A DNA stretch of 44,707 bases, taken from the NCBI GenBank assembly GCA_937930535.1, contig CALGKJ010000188.1, forward strand, positions 1 to 44,707, given 5' to 3'. Source of the stretch: an uncultured Clostridia bacterium. Its GTDB lineage: Bacteria; Bacillota; Clostridia; Lutisporales; Lutisporaceae. The notes under the pieces are model-generated. The model saw only the letters and a list, made by a program, of their open reading frames with translations. It did no database searches and had not been told where the DNA came from. The translations under genes and the position numbers were made by a program. Below are positions 6,651 to 39,978 of this stretch, piece by piece. Numbering within the stretch: the first letter of the stretch is position 1; every line of letters begins with the position of its first letter.

Positions 6651-6720
6651 AAGTTGGAAAGTTTTAATTTTGAAGTTGTTTCTCTATATAGATAACCAAC
6701 TCTAAAACTCAAAAGAATTT
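6651..6720. repeat. RUP-like MITE, copy B: right end fused to left end
   Basis: TTAATTTTGAAGTTG...CTCTATA (right end, as at 14519-14542) runs directly into TATAGATAACCAACTC...CTCAAAA (left end, as at 14439-14466), sharing the central TA. At least 28 bases of the left end are identical to copy A. The order is the reverse of a normal element, so this is a junction of two neighbouring copies or the product of a recombination. It lies in the 5' leader of the YibE/F gene. Confidence 0.7.
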
Positions 6721-6774
6721 TCTCATATAAATATATCATGTTTGTGTCATTTTGCCAAAGCTATTTTAAAGCAG

Positions 6775-6831: not shown

Positions 6832-9800
6832 TTATTTCATAAGATTATAAATGATTTGTGCTGCAGTTGCACGGTCACAAACCGACAACGGACTGAGCAT
6901 GTTATCTCCAGTACCTGCACATATTCCAGATTCGACCATCAGAGTCATAGCTGGAAGTGCCCAGTTTGCTACATCTGAAAGATCAACGTAACCGCCGATA
7001 AGGAGGTTCTCTTTAGCCTCAGGCAGTTCGCCAATAACCTTCAATGCATTATACAGCATGACGAACATTTCCTGTCTTGAAATCTCTTTAGTTGGGGCAA
7101 ATTTGTTTTCTCCAACGCCTGTAACTATGCCGAGATGCTTAGCAGCGGAAATATAAGGTGCTGCATAGTTGTCGCTCACATCATCAAAGCTCTTGACAGC
7201 ATTGGCGTCTGGTGCAATGTTGTATGCCCTCATCAGCATAACTAAGAATTGTTCCCTAGTCAGCTTTTGTGAAGGAGCAAAGTTTCCATTGCCGATGCCG
7301 TTAGTAATTCCACGGGCAGCGATGAAACCTACGGCTTCTGCATACCAAGCATCGGATGGTACATCGTTAAAGGTCACCTTGCTATAGGCTACAGCATACT
7401 CGGAGAAATGATTGAGCACTGCTTCGATGCATTTTGTCTCGGTATTGTATACACTACGAACGGATTCCAATCTACCCTCGCTGTTGATATAGAACAATAC
7501 CACAGAATCAGCATCTTCGTCTGGCTGCAGCGTGTAAGAGATTTTGACAAAGGCTTTTCCGCCCTCAAAATCATGTACTTGTTTATCACCGCTGGCAACG
7601 GTGAAATCATAAACAGGACGGTCGCCTACAATTGCTCTGACTTCTGATGAAAGCTCATCTGGATTTACCGTAGCAATTGAAAGTTTTACATCTCCTTGGC
7701 TGTTTGATTTACCGATTGCAGCCAAAGCTTTTTCATTAAAGGTAATTGATACTATTCCAGTATTAATCATAACGCTCATTTTATCGGTTTCTACAATGGA
7801 TTGAATCGCACTTGTTGGAATAACCACAGAAACGACTTCTGCACCTGTAGGGGCTATCGCTGTAATTTCAATGGTAGCCTTAGTCAAGGATGCAGCATTA
7901 TTAATAAGCGTATCTATCTCTCCAGTTGAAATAGAAGCCTCTGCAACACCATTTGTGCTTAGTACTGGTGTCAATTCTATTTTAGTTCCAACTATAGAAG
8001 ACACTGGTACTGATGGAGTCGTAGGAGACTCATCTACTATGCTGCTATCAGTATCATCGTCTATATCATCCTCACTGTCATCAACTTGAATCTCTGACCA
8101 CTTTGCATAAACTGTCATATCAGAGTTAACGACTGTACTAGCTGTGAATGCCGTGCCTAAACCATTCTTATTTGTAAACCATCCGCCAAAGATATAACCT
8201 GACTTTGTAGGTGCTGATGGAAGTGTTATGGTTCTACCTGACTGGATACCTGTCACATCTGCTACTGTTGTACCGCCATCTGAATCAAACTGCACTTTAT
8301 AAGTTACTACTGGTGCAACTGGAGTAACAAGCTCAATTTCTCCTCTGTCACGTACGCGTATACGCGGCAAGAAATCTGTTGTTGAAGTAAAGTTTTCTCC
8401 GATTGAGCCCAATCCTATTACGGATATGGTCACACCGTTTCTTACAAAGGAAAGATTCTTACTTGGAGTAATATAAGCATTGATATATACAATAGCAGGA
8501 CCGCTTCCGTCATCTATAGTAATTTCGTTGACAATTCCATTTGGTTCAGCCACAACACGGGTTACAACTCCTGTCGTCTTTATAAGCTTGCCTGTATTTA
8601 GAGCTGACATGGCATCTCTAGTAGAAACAGCTGTCGGTGTTACAGGTACAATCGTATTGTCCAAAATCCTAACACTACTTACAGCAAGCTGTTTCTCTCC
8701 CTGATAAGCACTAAGAACACCGGTTACACGTATTTTCTGGCCTGCCTGCACATCGTTTGCAACAGGGAAGAGGTTAATGCCGCCTGAAGAATCCTGAACA
8801 TAGATCGAATCAAAGAAGCCTGTATTGTTAAGGCTGTTTCCGTCATAAACACTCACCGTTGCAATACCCTCTATTGTAAACTCTGTTCCTTCCGCTGCCG
8901 CCTTTACGCCAGCGATAGGTGTAATAGTGATATTCTCAATCAACCCCAGCAAATTTCTCACAATAACTTCATTGCTATATGCATCAGCAGGGTTATCAAG
9001 GGCTGTATTTTTAATTTCAAAGTCGCTCAAGAAAGCACCGCCTGCTACGACTACCATGGAAGTAACACCATTACCATGATTAACCGTTTCCGAAGCAGCC
9101 AACAGTACTTTTCCGACTCCTTTTCCAGCATCAGGACTATTGCCGTACCTAGGAATCATGATTGTCGGGTCTTCAAAACCATATCCGTCATGGTCATCAT
9201 CAACTGAATAAGTTGTGCTATGACCGCTGACAATTGGAGTTACGCTGCTTGGCAGAGTAGTGGCAGGAGTACCGTCTGGATTAATTGCATATATTGTGGA
9301 ACCGCCATACTGGCTAAACTTTTGCCCATCCAACATTCCTTTTAATAAAGGGCTCACCCTGTTATTATGGTCATCAAGGTATAATCTTGGGGATTGACCT
9401 CCGTTATTCACATCATCCTTTGCTTCATCATCCCCAATACGAAGAGCTGATCCTATAGCAGCCAAAAGCTTATTCTGTTGTCCTGCCATATGATTTTCCA
9501 ATCCCTGCGTAACATAAGCATAGCTTTCGTAGAAGTCGCCCCATCCTGTTATAACTACAGGCTTGCCTTGCTTTGCAAAGTTAGCTATGGCAGTCAACTC
9601 TTCATTACTATAGTACTTATGAGTGATGCCTGAGGCTGGATCCAATCTCCTTGTAGGAGCAGTAATTATGAACATCTGATATTTTGGATCGGCTGCTGCA
9701 GCGATAAACTCCGCACTTGTATTCAGAATCACAGTACGAAGGCCGTATTGCATAGCGATTGTACTAAAGTTCTTCATGCCGTCCTTATAGTTTCCAGCTA

Positions 9801-12800
9801 CATACTCATTAAGGTGAGATGCATCGATAGCAATAAACTTTAATTTTGTAATATCCCTTACATTCAACTCAATTTCTTTGGTGTAGGTCTTGTCTACTCC
9901 GTTTACCTTTACACTTGCAGTTACAATGATGGTGGTTTTCATAGCCTCTGTTGGAGTAAAGCTTTGGGTATTCTTTACTGTAGAAGAAGCTGCAATGGAG
10001 GTGTTGAGTATATTGTCAGCAATAATAGCTCCGCCCTTTATCTGGTACTTGACTGAGTTCAGTGTTATTATGCTGGCTTCATTATTAAATACCTCTGTAG
10101 TCAAGGTCAGTGCTTCTGTAGTTACAGGTGTAGAGCTGCTGGAGGTAAACCCACTGATACCCACGTTATCCGCTTTACCAAGCCAAACTGGAGCAGTCAC
10201 AGCAATTCGTCCATCTTCCTGTACTACTTTAATATAGTAGTATCCTGCCTTGGGAGCTGTCATAGTATAATTCAAGGCTGCGTCTTTTGTACCGAAGTTC
10301 TGCTTGTAAGCTTCGACACCGCCGTTTGTTATTATTGCGATAGACTTGACCTTGTTGCTGCCTGCTACATTTTTTGCATCTACCTTAAAGGTAGCTGTAG
10401 CAGGTACAGAATCCAAAATGGTTCCAAGTTGTTCGTCATTGAGAGTATAAATTATATCGAGGTTGACATCTTCAGTTGCATAAACACGCATGTCCTTCAT
10501 AGCTTGGTATATACCTTCTGTAGTAAAGTCGTTGGTGTAAATAACAGTACGAGCCGTGTTGGAATTGCCCCACAAAGCTTTATGGTTGTCTTGATTGTTT
10601 GTAGGTGCTACGTGCCAGCCTTTGTCAAGTGCCATGTCATACTGCTCATAGGATGGGAAATAGCCGCCGCTTCCGATAGCACCTTCACCGTTTCCGACTT
10701 CAATGAGGGTAATCCTCTCGTCAATAACTGGATCATAATATCCAAAGCTGCTAAAGTTACCAAAGGTTGTTCCGGGATGATTAAACTGCGATATGGATTC
10801 GGGATGCAGCTTCAATAAATCATAGTAAGCTCTTAATCCGGCATCATTGGTCTTGCTATTAAGTTCTGTATTATTTCTGCTGACAAAGCCTTCCGTGTTA
10901 AAGGTATTCATATGGCCAGGCCCGCCAGACCATGTCATTTCAAAGCCATAGAAGGCGACATATTTTCCTGCATAACCTGCAACTGCATCAGCTGCAGCTG
11001 TTATGCCAGCTTGCCATCTTACGTTATTTTTATTATATGCACCCAAGTTATAGGTACCGGCTTTATCGCCTGCAGGTGCTGTGTCGAAGGAGTTACTGTG
11101 GTCAGTTACTGCGAAAAAGTCAAGCTTCGCATTATCACGAGCCCACGCAAAGGCTTCAGCTAAAGTTCCAGCACCATCAGAATTTGTTGTGTGGGAGTGA
11201 AGCTGTCCAAAATAATTTTTCTCACCGCCGGTTGGTTTTTGGGCTGTATAATTAAAGCTTATAAGGTCGCTGTCAATGTAATTCTCCTTTGAAGCCATTG
11301 CAGTAATCCTAAGGGGAAACATATCCTCAGTCAGTGCAATAGGTGCTGTATAGTCCGCTTCCGGCAAAACAGTCTCTTCTGCAGTTCCTGCTTTTTGGAT
11401 TATAGTATATTTGATAGCAGCATCTGCAGGTTCTGTCGTCAAAGTAATCGTTCCATTGGAAGGAACAGCTCCTGCCTTGGGAGAAGTGCTTACCGAAGCA
11501 ACCTTAGCCTGAGTAAAGCTGAAGGTTTTAACACGGCTGTCATCCATACTGTCTTTTACTGCCTTGACATGCAGTGTGATCGGAAGTACTGCCAGCGTAA
11601 CCTGCTTGTTATCCGCTGTTGTATATGTATTACCGCCGTCAGTGCTGTATTTTATGTCGGCGTCAGATGTCCTTGAGGAGAAGGTCACAACAGAACCCAA
11701 AGGAACCTTATGGTCCGCTATGTCGGCTGTTGCAGCATAAGCCTGATTATCTCCTACCAAATATGCGCCAGTTATAGCAATATTGTTGAACTGATGGGTG
11801 CCTCCGCTGCCGACATTATTGATTCCTCCGGTAGATATGTTAGAGGTCATTATCCATCTTAAGTGTATGGTATCTTTATTGAAAGTAGCATTTGGAAGAG
11901 CTACCGAGAACAGATTTGCAGCATCAAAGAGGCTGCCTGCATTGGGAACTTTAATAACTGAATCAGGAACATCAATCCACGTATTTCTATTATCAGTACT
12001 GTATTGAACTTTAAAGTCTCTTGGACCAGTACTAGAAGAACGCATACGCCATGAAAGATTCAGATCTGCCATACTCTTAGTAGAAATCTGTACCATCCAG
12101 TATTTAGTATTCATGCCGTCGTTCCAGCCACTGCAATTGGCTCCATTTGAACCGAAGGTTAAAGTAGGCTGTGCAGCTCCAAACCAGCAGGTCAAATTTG
12201 ATCCGCTTTTCAGATCTCCTCCTGTGGCAGCGATAGGCTGTATTAAGCTGCTTCCAGAGGATAATGCCCACTCTACGGCTGTGCCGTTTTCGCCGTCAGG
12301 ACTGTAGCTTTGCTGTGATGCAGCAGTATATGAGAAAGTAGCAGTATTGCTGTTCACGTAGCCGTTTTTCACAGCAATGGCTTTTATTGTATACGGAAGC
12401 GAGGATATAGTTATTTCACCTGTATATTCTGAACTGCTTATACTTGGTGTATCCCCATTTGTTGTATAGTATATGGTTGCACCTGCAGCAGCATTTAATG
12501 TAACAGATGTACCTGCTGTAACTTCACCGCCAGCAGGTGCTGCAGTAACATTGTCCAACTTTGCCTGTGTAAAAGTCCAGCTTGTTTCTGCACTGTCATC
12601 CATATCCGCAGCCGAAGCGTAAGCTTTTATGGTTATCGGGTCAGCAAATTCATTGAAGTTCAGTGTGATGGGAGCTGAATAAATACCGCTATCCACTAAA
12701 GTCGGATATGGGCTGTATATTGAATAATGTATATCGGCACCGACAGTAGAGGTTTCAAGAGTTATAGGGGTACCGCCGACAACTGCGCCGCTATTCAGAT

Positions 12801-13590
12801 TAGCGGTGACAATGCTTACAGCAGGTATACCGCCACTGCTTTCAGCCGTTATCAATACATTGGTTATCCCCAAACCCTGCGCAAAAGAAGTTGTTGTACC
12901 GCTTGTAACAGAATAGTTCCATGCAAAGTAAACCGGTTGCCCGTTTGGTAAAGAAATGTTTAGTTTTTGGTTGTTAATACTTTGAGTTGAAATCGGGACA
13001 TCAGCTGCACCGTTGGTATCAGCATCTGCATTAAAGCTGATTTTGAGGTTGTCTCCGGCATTTGTCCAAGTATCTCCATCAAGAGAATAATATAGCACTA
13101 TAGAGAAGCCTTGTGCATTTGAGCCGTTTCTAAACTTTTCAACATCGTAACTGATATCGAAGCTGCCTATATTGCTTCCGGTATCATTTGTCCACTTATA
13201 ATACAAGTTACCACTTTTTGTAGCACTGCCGGAGGATATAAATCCAACTGCACGATGTGTATAACCTGTATCCACTCCAAAATTATAAATACCATTTGAA
13301 GCACTACTTGTTAAATTGGAACCGCCAAGTCTTTCAGTTTTATCAACTGCAGTAACTGCGTTATAACTTCCAACTGTAGTAACAGTAATCTCTTTGCTCG
13401 CCTTCCAATTAGTTGGAAGGGTTGCAGTCGCATTATTTCCCAAAGAATAAAAATTCTCATTCGCCACAGGATATGTAGTTATATCTGCGTACGCTTTTAA
13501 TGCTCCGGCAATTCCCGTTGGAAGTAAATTTGTGAATAACAACATTACCGCAACAAGAACCGCAACAATTTTTCTTATTGATGCTTTCAA
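6832..13590 (-). CDS. 2,252-residue secreted PHP-domain metallohydrolase with SLH anchor
   Basis: Order of parts: signal peptide (1-36, AYA-DIT); carbohydrate-binding-like beta domain (about 40-255); two chitobiase C-terminal-like repeats (about 256-430, IYYTTNGDTPSIS type); another beta sandwich (430-610); two more chitobiase-like repeats (615-785); a CehA/McbA-type PHP domain from about 790 with the metal-ligand motifs FGQLHSHTTNSDG and FFAVTDHSNSF, then FYGFEMTW and SQFNHPGT; Ig-like linkers; a GATase/DUF4350-like region (about 1260-1500, KFIAIDASHLNEY, VVITGWGDFY); OB-fold domains of YhcR type (1570-1750); one InlB/Flg_new repeat (1760-1830, FDSDGGTTV, FGGWFTNK, VYAKW); an acidic linker; and three SLH repeats (about 2070-2252). 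PHP proteins of this group hydrolyse phosphoesters, so a cell-surface phosphodiesterase or nuclease is likely. The start is TTG at 13590, six bases after AAGGGGGT. Base composition is higher in G+C than the core genes. Confidence 0.85.
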   Translation of the reverse strand: MKASIRKIVAVLVAVMLLFTNLLPTGIAGALKAYADITTYPVANENFYSLGNNATATLPTNWKASKEITVTTVGSYNAVTAVDKTERLGGSNLTSSASNGIYNFGVDTGYTHRAVGFISSGSATKSGNLYYKWTNDTGSNIGSFDISYDVEKFRNGSNAQGFSIVLYYSLDGDTWTNAGDNLKISFNADADTNGAADVPISTQSINNQKLNISLPNGQPVYFAWNYSVTSGTTTSFAQGLGITNVLITAESSGGIPAVSIVTANLNSGAVVGGTPITLETSTVGADIHYSIYSPYPTLVDSGIYSAPITLNFNEFADPITIKAYASAADMDDSAETSWTFTQAKLDNVTAAPAGGEVTAGTSVTLNAAAGATIYYTTNGDTPSISSSEYTGEITISSLPYTIKAIAVKNGYVNSNTATFSYTAASQQSYSPDGENGTAVEWALSSGSSLIQPIAATGGDLKSGSNLTCWFGAAQPTLTFGSNGANCSGWNDGMNTKYWMVQISTKSMADLNLSWRMRSSSTGPRDFKVQYSTDNRNTWIDVPDSVIKVPNAGSLFDAANLFSVALPNATFNKDTIHLRWIMTSNISTGGINNVGSGGTHQFNNIAITGAYLVGDNQAYAATADIADHKVPLGSVVTFSSRTSDADIKYSTDGGNTYTTADNKQVTLAVLPITLHVKAVKDSMDDSRVKTFSFTQAKVASVSTSPKAGAVPSNGTITLTTEPADAAIKYTIIQKAGTAEETVLPEADYTAPIALTEDMFPLRITAMASKENYIDSDLISFNYTAQKPTGGEKNYFGQLHSHTTNSDGAGTLAEAFAWARDNAKLDFFAVTDHSNSFDTAPAGDKAGTYNLGAYNKNNVRWQAGITAAADAVAGYAGKYVAFYGFEMTWSGGPGHMNTFNTEGFVSRNNTELNSKTNDAGLRAYYDLLKLHPESISQFNHPGTTFGNFSSFGYYDPVIDERITLIEVGNGEGAIGSGGYFPSYEQYDMALDKGWHVAPTNNQDNHKALWGNSNTARTVIYTNDFTTEGIYQAMKDMRVYATEDVNLDIIYTLNDEQLGTILDSVPATATFKVDAKNVAGSNKVKSIAIITNGGVEAYKQNFGTKDAALNYTMTAPKAGYYYIKVVQEDGRIAVTAPVWLGKADNVGISGFTSSSSTPVTTEALTLTTEVFNNEASIITLNSVKYQIKGGAIIADNILNTSIAASSTVKNTQSFTPTEAMKTTIIVTASVKVNGVDKTYTKEIELNVRDITKLKFIAIDASHLNEYVAGNYKDGMKNFSTIAMQYGLRTVILNTSAEFIAAAADPKYQMFIITAPTRRLDPASGITHKYYSNEELTAIANFAKQGKPVVITGWGDFYESYAYVTQGLENHMAGQQNKLLAAIGSALRIGDDEAKDDVNNGGQSPRLYLDDHNNRVSPLLKGMLDGQKFSQYGGSTIYAINPDGTPATTLPSSVTPIVSGHSTTYSVDDDHDGYGFEDPTIMIPRYGNSPDAGKGVGKVLLAASETVNHGNGVTSMVVVAGGAFLSDFEIKNTALDNPADAYSNEVIVRNLLGLIENITITPIAGVKAAAEGTEFTIEGIATVSVYDGNSLNNTGFFDSIYVQDSSGGINLFPVANDVQAGQKIRVTGVLSAYQGEKQLAVSSVRILDNTIVPVTPTAVSTRDAMSALNTGKLIKTTGVVTRVVAEPNGIVNEITIDDGSGPAIVYINAYITPSKNLSFVRNGVTISVIGLGSIGENFTSTTDFLPRIRVRDRGEIELVTPVAPVVTYKVQFDSDGGTTVADVTGIQSGRTITLPSAPTKSGYIFGGWFTNKNGLGTAFTASTVVNSDMTVYAKWSEIQVDDSEDDIDDDTDSSIVDESPTTPSVPVSSIVGTKIELTPVLSTNGVAEASISTGEIDTLINNAASLTKATIEITAIAPTGAEVVSVVIPTSAIQSIVETDKMSVMINTGIVSITFNEKALAAIGKSNSQGDVKLSIATVNPDELSSEVRAIVGDRPVYDFTVASGDKQVHDFEGGKAFVKISYTLQPDEDADSVVLFYINSEGRLESVRSVYNTETKCIEAVLNHFSEYAVAYSKVTFNDVPSDAWYAEAVGFIAARGITNGIGNGNFAPSQKLTREQFLVMLMRAYNIAPDANAVKSFDDVSDNYAAPYISAAKHLGIVTGVGENKFAPTKEISRQEMFVMLYNALKVIGELPEAKENLLIGGYVDLSDVANWALPAMTLMVESGICAGTGDNMLSPLSVCDRATAAQIIYNLMK

Positions 13591-14438: not shown

Positions 14439-14542
14439 TATAGATAACCAACTCTAAAACTCAAAATACTTTTCTTTAAGACTTGCTAATCTATTTGTGA
14501 GAAATAACTGGATAAATTTAATTTTGAAGTTGTTTCTCTATA
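14439..14542. repeat. RUP-like MITE, copy A (104 bp, best full-length copy)
   Basis: The element runs from TATAGATAACCAACTC to AAGTTGTTTCTCTATA. Its ends are imperfect inverted repeats (TATAGATAACCAACT against TATAGAGAAACAACT), and both begin or end with TATA, as expected of elements that insert at TA. An internal GAGAAATAACT can pair with the right end. Related copies are at 6651, 28586, 28992, 34172 and 35975. Confidence 0.75.
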
Positions 14543-28991: not shown

Positions 28992-29088
28992 TTTTTTAGC
29001 TTAAAACTTAAATTATTCCAAGCTAATAGCCTAGAAGGGAAGAAATAACTAGCCTATGAATAAATTAGTTTTTGGTTGCTTCCCTATA
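28992..29088. repeat. RUP-like MITE, copy F (diverged)
   Basis: GAAATAACT, AATAAATTA and a right end GGTTGCTTCCCTATA match copies A and C in order. The stem outer six pairs are GGGAAG (29037-29042) with CTTCCC (29079-29084), where copy C has GAGAAA with TTTCTC. Two paired positions changed together. The left end is poorly conserved, so its border is approximate. Confidence 0.55.
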
Positions 29089-34154: not shown

Positions 34155-34171
34155 GTAAATTCCTCCAAGAA

Positions 34172-34199
34172 TATTAAATTATGAAGTTGTTTCTCTATA
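34172..34199. repeat. RUP-like MITE, copy D: right end only
   Basis: TATTAAATTATGAAG and GTTGTTTCTCTATA match the right end of copies A-C. The rest of the element is absent. Its CTCTATA contains, on the minus strand, the TAG stop of rsmE, and its other side touches the leader of mtaB. Confidence 0.65.
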
Positions 34200-34932
34200 A
34201 CTCTTCAAATTCGTACATTACACAAGTTAAGGCTGCAACACCTGCGGTCTCGGTTCTGAGAATTCTGCTGCCAAGGGTTACTGGTATAACATTATTTCTC
34301 GTTGCTTCTGTTACCTCTGATGCATCAAAGCCGCCCTCAGGTCCGATAAAAATCGCAATACTTTTAGCAGCTTGAGATTTTATTGCCTTTTTTATATTTG
34401 TATTCTGTTCCAGTTCATAGGGCATTATTATAATATCTGAGTTTTGTGCATCAATAAGTGCTTCACTTAATGACATTGGCATACTAATAATAGGTATTAC
34501 ACCTCGTCTGCTTTGTTTGGATGCTTCCTCAGCAATTTTACTCCAACGCTCAACCTTCTTTCGCTCATCCTTCTCAGTTTCCAGCTTCACAACTGTTCTG
34601 GATGTAACAACAGGCACTACTTTATTAATGCCCAGCTCTGTACATTTTTGTATTATATCATCCATTTTCGTTGATTTAGGTATTCCTTGATATAAAACTG
34701 TTTGTATAATTGCTTCACCTTTAGATTTATAGCTGTTTATTATTGTAGTTATTACACTTTCCTTAGATATACTTTCTATCTTAACCTGATAGTCCATACC
34801 TTTCTGGTCGCATAAGGTTATTTCATCACCATTTCTCAATCTCAGTACCTTTGATATGTGCTGAACATCCTCGCCCGTAATCGTGATGCTGTTATTACTA
34901 AAGCTATTACTATCAATAAAAAATCTATGCAT
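34195..34932 (-). CDS. rsmE: 16S rRNA m3U1498 methyltransferase RsmE
   Basis: RsmE methylates N3 of U1498 in 16S rRNA in the assembled 30S subunit. The 245-residue protein begins MHRFFIDSN, with a PUA-like N-terminal region (GEDVQHISKVLRLRNGD) and a SPOUT knot with FIGPEGGFDASEV and LGSRILRTETAGVAAL. ATG at 34932 overlaps the prmA stop by 8 bases; the frame continues 26 codons further but gives no family match there. Its last residues are YEFEEL and the stop TAG lies in a repeat end. Confidence 0.95.
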   Translation of the reverse strand: MHRFFIDSNSFSNNSITITGEDVQHISKVLRLRNGDEITLCDQKGMDYQVKIESISKESVITTIINSYKSKGEAIIQTVLYQGIPKSTKMDDIIQKCTELGINKVVPVVTSRTVVKLETEKDERKKVERWSKIAEEASKQSRRGVIPIISMPMSLSEALIDAQNSDIIIMPYELEQNTNIKKAIKSQAAKSIAIFIGPEGGFDASEVTEATRNNVIPVTLGSRILRTETAGVAALTCVMYEFEEL

Positions 34933-35974: not shown

Positions 35975-36000
35975 TATAGCCAACAACTCTAAAACTCAAT
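35975..36000. repeat. RUP-like MITE, copy E: left end only
   Basis: TATAGCCAACAACTCTAAA and ACTCAAT match the left end of copies A and B (TATAGATAACCAACTCTAAA). The sequence then runs into the dnaJ terminator, whose arms also contain AAAACTCAA. The remaining part of the element is missing. Confidence 0.6.
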
Positions 36001-37364: not shown

Positions 37365-39197
37365 CTATTTGTCGTCTTCAACCTTGTATTCGGGATTTAT
37401 TGTATTATCGTCCTGGGCTCCGCCAAATCCTTCTTGTTCTGCGCCTGGTGCTCCCGGCTGACCTGCACCTGCTTGGTATACCTTAGCTGATATTTCGTAG
37501 AACACCTTTGTAAGCTCTTCTGTAGAAGCTTTAATTGCTTCTATATCTGTACCCTTTAATGTTTCTTTAAGCTTATTAAGTTCTGCCTCAATTCTGGACT
37601 TATCTTCCTCACTTAGCTTGTCGCCAAGCTCTTTCATGGACTTTTCTGTTTGATAAACAAGACTGTCTGCTTGATTTCTTGCTTCTACTTCTTCTTTTCT
37701 TTGCTTATCTTCTGCTGCATACATTTCTGCATCTCTAACTGCTTTTTGTATATCTTCATCTGAAAGATTTGTGCTTGCAGTTATTGTAACCTTCTGTTCA
37801 TTTCCTGTTCCAAGATCCTTTGCAGAAACATGCACTATACCATTTGCGTCTATATCAAAGGTTACTTCGATTTGCGGTACTCCTCTTGGTGCTGGTGGTA
37901 TTCCAGTAAGCTGGAATCTTCCTAATGTCTTGTTATATGCTGCCATTTCTCTTTCACCTTGAAGCACGTGTATTTCAACGCTGGTCTGTCCGTCAGCAGC
38001 AGTAGAGAATATCTGGCTCTTCTTTGAAGGTATTGTAGTATTTCTTTCAATAAGCTTTGTTGATACTCCGCCTAGCGTTTCAATACCCAAGGAAAGAGGA
38101 GTTACATCAAGCAGTAGAACGTCCTTTACTTCACCAGTTAATACTGCTGCTTGTATAGCTGCTCCTACTGCAACGCACTCATCTGGGTTTACTCCCTTGT
38201 AGGGTTCTTTTCCAGTAAGCTTTTTAACTGCGTCCTGTACTGCTGGGATTCTTGTTGAACCACCAACAAGCATAATTTTATTTAATTTATCCACTGAAAG
38301 ACCTGCATCAGAAAGAGCCTTTCTTGTTGGCTCCATTGTCATTTCAACAAGGTCATGTGTCAATTCATCAAATTTCGCTCTTGTAAGTGTTATGTCAAGG
38401 TGCTTTGGACCGCTTGCATCAGCAGTTATAAACGGAAGATTAATGTTCGTTTGAAGTACGCCTGAAAGCTCTATTTTTGCCTTTTCAGCGGCTTCCTTTA
38501 ATCTTTGTAAAGCCATCTTGTCATTTTTCAAGTCTATTCCGCTTTCTTTTCTAAACTCATCAGCTAGGTAGTTTATTACTCTTTGGTCAAAGTCATCTCC
38601 GCCTAGTCTGTTATTACCGCTGGTTGCCAATACTTCAAATACTCCGTCGCCAAGCTCTAGTATTGATACGTCAAAAGTACCGCCGCCAAGGTCGAATACA
38701 AGAATCTTCTGGTTTTCTTCCTTGTCCATACCATATGCTAAAGATGCAGCAGTAGGCTCGTTGATAATTCTAAGAACTTCAAGTCCCGCAATCTTACCTG
38801 CATCCTTTGTTGCCTGTCTTTGGCTGTCACTGAAATATGCTGGTACAGTTATTACTGCTTGAGTTACCTTTTCACCTAGGTAAGCTTCTGCATCCTGCTT
38901 CAGTTTAGTTAATATCATAGCAGATATTTCTTGTGGTGTATATGCAGTTCCGTCAATATTGACCTTGTAATTTGTTCCCATTTCTCTTTTTATTGAAATT
39001 ACAGTTCTATCAGGGTTTGTAATTGCTTGTCTTTTCGCAACCTGACCTACTAATCTTTCACCATTTTTTGAAAAACCTACAACTGATGGAGTAGTTCTGT
39101 TACCTTCTGCGTTTGCAATAACTACTGGTTCTCCACCCTCCATAACAGCAACACATGAGTTAGTTGTACCTAAGTCTATACCTATTACTTTAGCCAT
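37365..39197 (-). CDS. dnaK: Chaperone DnaK (Hsp70)
   Basis: The 610-residue Hsp70 has the nucleotide-binding signatures [28 protein letters not shown] and [13 protein letters not shown], a substrate-binding domain with [16 protein letters not shown], and a short Gly/Ala/Gln-rich tail ([17 protein letters not shown]) with acidic C-terminus. It folds nascent and stressed proteins with GrpE and DnaJ. It starts after AAGGAGGAAGACTGATAAA. The lack of the Gram-negative insertion after the N-terminal segment is normal for Bacillota. Confidence 0.98.
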
Positions 39198-39239
39198 TTT
39201 ATCAGTCTTCCTCCTTATAATTAAATCAATATATTTAAT

Positions 39240-39334
39240 ACGAAAATAAAACTGCGTCTGTCTTGGGTCACTGCCTTAGATTTGCTTTATTTTCGTTGAT
39301 TGCCGATGAAAATCCGGGTAGACCGTCTTTTCAT
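39240..39334 (-). promoter_or_regulatory. Two stem-loops between grpE and dnaK
   Basis: In mRNA sense, ATGAAAA (39334-39328) pairs with TTTTCAT (39312-39306), then ACGAAAATAAA (39296-39286) pairs with TTTATTTTCGT (39250-39240). Both stems are perfect. Neither is followed by a strong T tract. They sit in an unusually long 160-base gap within the operon and may control processing or relative dnaK expression. Confidence 0.5.
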
Positions 39335-39357
39335 TCAGGTTATATAAATTTTAAAAG

Positions 39358-39978
39358 CTAGCTGTTTTTTACTGAAACCTTTACTAGTGATGGTCTTATA
39401 ACCTTAGAACCTAAAGTATATCCCTTCTGGAATACCTCTTTTATTTTATTTTCCTCGTCATCCTCGCCTTCTGTTTGCATAACAGCATGATGTACGTTAG
39501 GATCAAAATCCTTGTCTTGTGCTTCGATTTCCTTTAGCCCATTTTTTTGCAGTGTATTCAGCAATTGCTTTGATATCATATCTACGCCGTCTATATACTT
39601 GTTATCCAAATTATCAGCTTTAAAGGCAGCTAATGCCCTTTCCATGTTATCAATAACAGGCAGCAGCTCTTTTACTATGCCCTCTAGCGAAGAATAATAA
39701 AGCTCCTCACGCTCCCTTGCTATACGCCTTTTATAGTTTTCAAAATCAGCCTGCATTCTTAGAAATCTATTGTAGTTTTCTTCTGATTCCTTTGATTTTT
39801 CTTCCAGAGATTTTTTTAGCTGCTCTAATTCACCTTGTTCACAATTATTCTGCTCTGCTTCGTTATCAGCTTGGCAGCAGCATTGGCTTTGCTCACAGCC
39901 TGCTTCACAGTCATTGATATTATCAATATTTTCATTTAAAATCTCTTCCTTTTGTCCCTTTTGCTTTTTTCCCTTCAT
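39358..39978 (-). CDS. grpE: Nucleotide exchange factor GrpE
   Basis: The 206-residue GrpE releases ADP from DnaK. The N-terminal 60 residues are polar and unusually rich in Cys (NDCEAGCEQSQCCCQ), followed by a long coiled coil (about 55-110; ENYNRFLRMQADFENYKRRI) and the beta domain (about 140-206; FDPNVHHAVM, VFQKGYTLGSKVIRPSLVKV). The cysteine cluster is not usual in GrpE and could bind metal or form disulfides; this is an observation only. Confidence 0.97.
   Translation of the reverse strand: MKGKKQKGQKEEILNENIDNINDCEAGCEQSQCCCQADNEAEQNNCEQGELEQLKKSLEEKSKESEENYNRFLRMQADFENYKRRIAREREELYYSSLEGIVKELLPVIDNMERALAAFKADNLDNKYIDGVDMISKQLLNTLQKNGLKEIEAQDKDFDPNVHHAVMQTEGEDDEENKIKEVFQKGYTLGSKVIRPSLVKVSVKNS

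Follow-up and report, generated by a model that had tools for sequence, protein, structure and literature searches.

A mobile 104-bp repeat of a Clostridia genome that looks like two hairpin elements joined at a shared TA

The 44,707-nucleotide stretch of Lutisporaceae DNA analysed here (the window) carries, at positions 14439 to 14542, a short repeat that an initial annotation took for a mobile element. The locus raises the question of whether the repeat is mobile and, if so, how it came to be built as it is and what kind of enzyme might have moved it.

Copies in the window and the genome

The repeat at this locus, copy A, lies exactly at the coordinates first given for it and is 104 bp long; it opens with TATAGATAACC and closes with GTTTCTCTATA, and 11 to 12 of the 14 end bases match, in keeping with the imperfect inverted repeats starting in TATA that had been described. 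The related features of the window are these:

14439 to 14542, plus strand: copy A, a full-length 104-bp element (A-type L hairpin plus R hairpin) with TATA at both ends
14439 to 14495, plus strand: L hairpin module of copy A, about 57 bp, delimited by the fold and also found alone at L078, L079 and L075
14498 to 14542, plus strand: R hairpin module of copy A (the 48-bp class when solo), delimited by the fold and also found alone at L067, L081 and L102
28586 to 28690, plus strand: copy C, full-length, with another L hairpin (TATAGCTAAGACAC...) and the same R hairpin
6654 to 6722, plus strand: B, a truncated R part and a truncated L part at a common TA, the remnant of a head-to-tail array
34171 to 34200, plus strand: D, a fragment of the right end (E=6e-7 to copy A)
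35975 to 35999, plus strand: E, a probable fragment of the left end, weak (E=0.004)
28992 to 29088, minus strand: F, of a second paired-hairpin family (TATAGGGAAGCAACC...AAAAACCCTATA), with one end decayed

Copy C, which has a yqfD gene (by Pfam) immediately downstream, is collinear with copy A as first proposed: in a blastn comparison within the window the two align over their full length (75% identity, E=1e-15). F had been placed in the same collinear group; it gave no blastn match to copy A and represents a separate family. A and C are one family whose members differ in their left halves, and F is a second family of like design. B, D and E are indeed junctions or fragments, B consisting of an R part (6654 to 6688) and an L part (6687 to 6722) that match copy A with E=1e-8 and 7e-12. 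D and E were also considered as the paired ends of one large element, an idea that was rejected when the intervening genes proved to encode ordinary methyltransferases. On the minus strand, positions 6832 to 13590 of the window encode a predicted protein of 2,252 aa with S-layer homology, chitobiase-type C-terminal and Listeria-Bacteroides repeat domains.

The expectation of many copies genome-wide was borne out. When up to two mismatches are allowed, the genome contains 543 occurrences of the 15-bp end, compared with 26 for a reversed-pattern control, and a search of the genome with the 104-mer gave at least 81 matches from the 40 of 408 first-look candidates that were scored. Copy counts rest on whole-genome searches of this capped kind and on a 1.22-Mb sample of stretches picked partly because they hold copies; the sample contains 80 full copies of the A/C family, which average 92% identity to their own consensus, together with 57 partial ones, and scaling up gives an estimate of about 300 to 450 insertions. 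Copy A is one among several hundred, and the repeat is real and mobile. The elements form an abundant, lineage-specific set of miniature inverted-repeat transposable elements (MITEs) that makes up, as a rough estimate, some 1% of the genome. With the form TATAG...CTATA, the 104-mer is short (<200 bp), lacks a transposase or long open reading frame and has no protein-coding capacity. It is almost always intergenic: only 4 of 142 copies lie mostly within open reading frames of at least 100 aa, where 82% of the sequence is coding, and the gene-orientation contexts of the copies agree with expectation. Viral, plasmid and phage collections held no match to it.

In nearly all of the 80 full copies each end is TATA or differs from it by one base, so the TA-type ends claimed for the element hold for the family at large. 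The target of the A/C family is itself palindromic around the TA (TNYTARNA), with left and right flanks alike. The base adjoining the TA is a purine in 100 of 140 flanks and C in only 2 of 140 (p=2e-7), and 57% have A as the third base (p=7e-8); element boundaries were snapped to TATA, which may bias the first flank base and, to a lesser degree, the third. At L098 (position 6834) a terminator-like stem holds an element in its loop, and the stem becomes whole again once that element and one TA are taken away; this was the sole good case of terminator targeting, and there was no general trend. A search for insertions into genes whose reading frame is restored on removal gave no convincing case, and no MITE was found inserted into the interior of another.

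Comparison with a metagenome-assembled genome of the same genus (CALJSV01, here G001, the only genus relative compared) showed that the insertion sites are not common to the two, against the possibility of positions fixed in all relatives. The two genomes are about 75% identical, so the polymorphism is between species. G001 carries one copy of the 104-bp element, and the alignable orthologous loci in G001 lack the elements found in the window's genome. One left junction is conserved in G001; its intergenic DNA is too diverged to yield a base-exact orthologous empty site for the 104-mer. The cysK locus offers a reciprocal case, in which the one 104-bp copy in G001 stands against a different element in the window's genome. 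In a GTDB-wide scan that left out the window's own genome, the R-hairpin pattern matched in G001 only, with no match in Streptococcus, and the exact fused middle of the element, described below, matched nowhere. The family is a lineage-specific, TA-type MITE that has moved since the two lineages of the genus parted.

Two hairpins and their junctions

The A/C-family consensus, TATAGATAACCAACTCTAAAACTCAAAATACTTTTCGTTAAGAGTTGCTAATCTCTTTGTGAGAAACAACTGGAAAAATTTAATTTTGAAGTTGTTTCTCTATA, folds into two serial hairpins, L of about 57 bp and R of 48 bp. The R stem (GAGAAACAACT/AGTTGTTTCTC) is preserved in nearly all of 30 aligned copies, and in the L hairpin four pairs vary on both sides with pairing kept, mostly as a difference between the A and C types. 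C-type copies (copy C in the window and several more) combine another L hairpin, TATAGCTAAGACACTTTAAAG..., with the same R hairpin. The left hairpin is interchangeable, one R hairpin being joined to different L hairpins.

Each hairpin also occurs alone, with TATA on each side. Solo R hairpins of 48 bp lie at L067 (14810 to 14857), L081 (15258 to 15305) and L102 (7603 to 7650), and solo L hairpins of 57 to 61 bp at L079 (7555 to 7611), L075 (13298 to 13354) and L078 (13216 to 13276); the tally is 15 R-only and 9 L-only elements against 80 full copies. In the middle of the 104-mer the sequence is CTCTTTGTGAG or CTATTTGTGAG, a fused form. At L124 (5242 to 5346) it reads CTATATAGAG, two intact ends meeting at one common TA, and the unfused CTATATAG junction is kept in some copies of both families. 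These unfused junctions and the solo modules make the 104-mer look like two elements joined at a shared TA.

The second family reproduces this design with a different sequence, similarity to copy A being confined to the ends. Its consensus is close to TATAGGGAAGCAACCATAAAACTTAACTTATTCATAGGCTAGTTATTGCTTCCCTTCTAGGTTTTTAGCTTGGAATAATTTAAGTTTTAAGCTAAAAACCCTATA, and it gave 43 matches in the 1.22 Mb and 230 first-look candidates genome-wide, with no match in 21 further genomes of the order; with 34 flanks, no target preference was discernible for it. Most copies have CCCTTCTAGG in the middle, and three (L093 at 6414, L092 at 5219 and L101 at 14248) retain CTATATAGG or ATATATAGGG there, so that unfused and fused junctions are seen independently of the A/C family. 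At L101 (14262 to 14311), the F family's second hairpin is a near-perfect palindrome with TATAG...CTATA ends. Similar palindromes with the same ends at L077 (5859 to 5886) and L091 (5126 to 5174) may be further modules or chance.

Whole elements also follow one another in series. All 12 of 12 adjacent pairs are head-to-tail, nearly all sharing one TA or a one-base variant, and the arrays have a 102-bp period. Two tandem pairs are identical, which suits local duplication; the others are no closer to each other than random pairs. Everything from solo modules through unfused junctions to fused dimers, trimers and arrays can be seen in one genome, as apparent intermediates. To our knowledge, the origin and growth of MITEs are usually inferred without such intermediates.

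Origin and mobilisation

We consider it probable that the 104-mer is a non-autonomous TA MITE, built by a two-step fusion of hairpins, and that its movement depends on a DDE transposase acting in trans, one of the IS630/Tc1-mariner group. Such an enzyme would recognise ends of the type TATAG(A/G)NAA(A/C)CAACT. In the first step, small palindromic hairpins would insert side by side with a shared TA: an R hairpin of 48 bp and L hairpins of about 57 bp, the latter in two or more sequence types. In the second, the inner pair of ends would decay, CTATATAGAG becoming CTCTTTGTGAG, and the pair would behave as a single unit, the dead inner ends presumably being the reason that the dimer moves as one. 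The fused unit could then spread to hundreds of intergenic sites, sometimes as head-to-tail arrays. In favour of this scheme, a solo 48-bp element that hosts a nested insertion returns to exactly 48 bp on its removal; the abundance, the TATA ends and palindromic target, the shared-TA arrays, the solo modules, the unfused junctions, the swapped L hairpins, the restored terminator stem and the empty alignable loci in G001 support it too. Against it count the searches for a transposase gene with matching ends, which found none, the divergence of G001 that left the 104-mer with no base-exact empty site, the two identical tandem pairs, and the direct orientation of all the arrays, for which insertion in random orientation alone does not account; inverted pairs may have been lost as long palindromes.

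Insertion at TA with duplication of the TA is the hallmark of IS630/Tc1-mariner transposases, as described for ISY100 (PMC2170065). The TA target, the empty sites and the lineage restriction fit a transposase of this type, and the 104-bp family would itself duplicate TA. The IS630/Tc1 transposase with matching ends that the initial annotation had anticipated did not appear in the genome or, for IS630, in the order. The PF13358 loci found in the window's own genome (two of IS630 type) and in the order have other ends. A genome search for the end pattern around a non-MITE interior gave four matches, none autonomous, and an end-pair scan of the 1.22 Mb gave no autonomous candidate. A 1,069-bp inverted pair (C45:3683-4751) was rejected as two solo 48-bp elements around a regulator-like gene. 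The assembly consists of 252 contigs, and some of them start inside copies, so an identical multi-copy insertion sequence could have been lost from it. With no matching-end element found, we infer IS630-type mobilisation from behaviour and not from membership.

The same MITE might owe its movement to a TA-duplicating transposase of another class, such as an IS427-like enzyme of the IS5 family, or to one now gone. TA duplications are also made by other transposase families, and IS630 is present in this genome as two remnants with other ends. However, the sole two DDE_Tnp_1 loci in the genome likewise have other ends, and TA-exclusive insertion with duplication is what marks the IS630/Tc1-mariner group (ISY100, PMC2170065). 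We regard a different class as unlikely, though the best placed of the alternatives.

A reversal of the proposed order of events is a little less likely again. On this view the MITE began as the 104-mer, and internal deletion, by recombination between its related arms AACCAACT / AAACAACT, would have given the solo hairpins of 48 and 57 bp. We retain this deletion model as a rival on account of solo R copies, several of which start with an L-type end, TATAGATAACCAACTGG..., the product expected if the stretch from the left end to the R arm were deleted; full copies also exceed solos, by 80 to 24, and L142 is a 71-bp partial deletion. Deletion does not, however, predict the intact middle junctions in both families, and it is at odds with the pairing of the same R hairpin with different L hairpins and with solo L copies that have a TATA end of their own (L078 at 13216, L079 at 7555).

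Far less probable is a family of structured regulatory RNAs or terminators multiplied by functional selection rather than transposition. Stable hairpins with two-sided pair changes and intergenic placement would suit such a family, but copy A has no Rfam match at E up to 1 (the window as a whole has none at the gathering threshold), the gene-orientation context is unbiased, and the stems are not followed by a T-run. The sharp TA boundaries, the target preference extending beyond the element and the orthologous sites without it also speak against selection. Least credible of all is movement as REP/BIME-like palindromes by a RAYT (Y1) or IS200/IS605-type enzyme acting on single-stranded hairpins: like BIMEs (PMC2817692) the repeat is palindromic, high-copy, intergenic and a two-hairpin composite that forms arrays, but Y1_Tnp (PF01797), found by the same search in five control genomes, is missing from this one, which removes the RAYT route, symmetric TATA ends and a palindromic TA target are ill-suited to that chemistry, and BIME units alternate in orientation whereas the arrays here are all direct.

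A fused TA MITE has close relatives in kind. RUP of Streptococcus pneumoniae, due to Oggioni and Claverys and described in PMC2229807 and PMC3049150, resembles the 104-mer in size (about 107 against 104 bp), in being A+T-rich, non-coding and intergenic with more than 100 copies, and in its TA termini, TA targets and stem-loop folding; the likeness claimed is one of kind. RUP ends match those of IS630-Spn1, whereas for the 104-mer no matching insertion sequence was found; the proposed resemblance to RUP and other IS630-linked MITEs stands for size and TA ends and draws no support from the IS630-type loci found, which have other ends. The 104-mer also departs from RUP in having two separable hairpins, left halves that can be exchanged and a copy number of several hundred. 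BOX, also of S. pneumoniae (PMC3049150), is similarly modular, with modules that may be absent, single or repeated, but its A, B and C modules are not described there as TA-flanked or as complete solo units, and, as far as tested, its sequence is not related. Correia/NEMIS and ERIC (PMC2229807) share the non-coding character, a length of 100 to 160 bp, TA termini and target duplication; unlike the present host, theirs are proteobacterial, and in Correia a single terminal repeat of about 24 bp takes the place of the two serial hairpins of the 104-mer. The kind of element is thus known (RUP, Correia, ERIC: PMC2229807, PMC3049150), and what looks unusual is that its apparent assembly out of two independent hairpins is visible in both families. 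The papers searched, which cover part of the literature, held no earlier description of it.

A companion 107-nt element

A further structured element came to light beside these MITEs, in the window between two minus-strand genes (37365 to 39197 and 39358 to 39978) that we take to be dnaK and grpE from their place beside dnaJ:

39236 to 39342, plus strand: 107-nt structured element

It has the form TAATAYGAAAA...CAGGTTA; this genome gave 54 matches and G001 gave 5, against none in 20 further genomes of the order. Its fold is conserved (30 predicted pairs, 7 of them changing on both sides), and it has no Rfam match. At L073 (17381 to 17533) a 153-bp composite holds the 107-nt element within a solo 48-bp R hairpin; removal of the element with one TA leaves exactly 48 bp, identical to other solos at 42 and 41 of 48 positions. 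The 107-nt element could therefore, in principle, travel as a passenger of the MITE. At cysK in the window's genome it lies immediately 5' of GGAGG, and the G001 orthologue (81% amino acid identity) has an intact ...GATTTTAGGAGG, a clean empty site for it. Tandem 107-nt copies overlap by two bases. Together, the restoration at L073, the empty site at cysK and the two-base overlap indicate that the 107-nt element duplicates TA and is polymorphic.

The element is possibly a mobile cis-regulatory RNA. Tentatively, and with considerable doubt, the lineage may be running a set of TA-inserting structured DNAs, in which hairpins fuse at shared TAs and a 107-nt cis-regulatory RNA transposes to sites before Shine-Dalgarno sequences, perhaps by means of the same transposase. 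If the element truly prefers such sites, this would provide a route by which a regulatory RNA could spread through a genome; in 21 of the 25 copies inspected by eye, a purine-rich, Shine-Dalgarno-like run directly follows it in the sense orientation.
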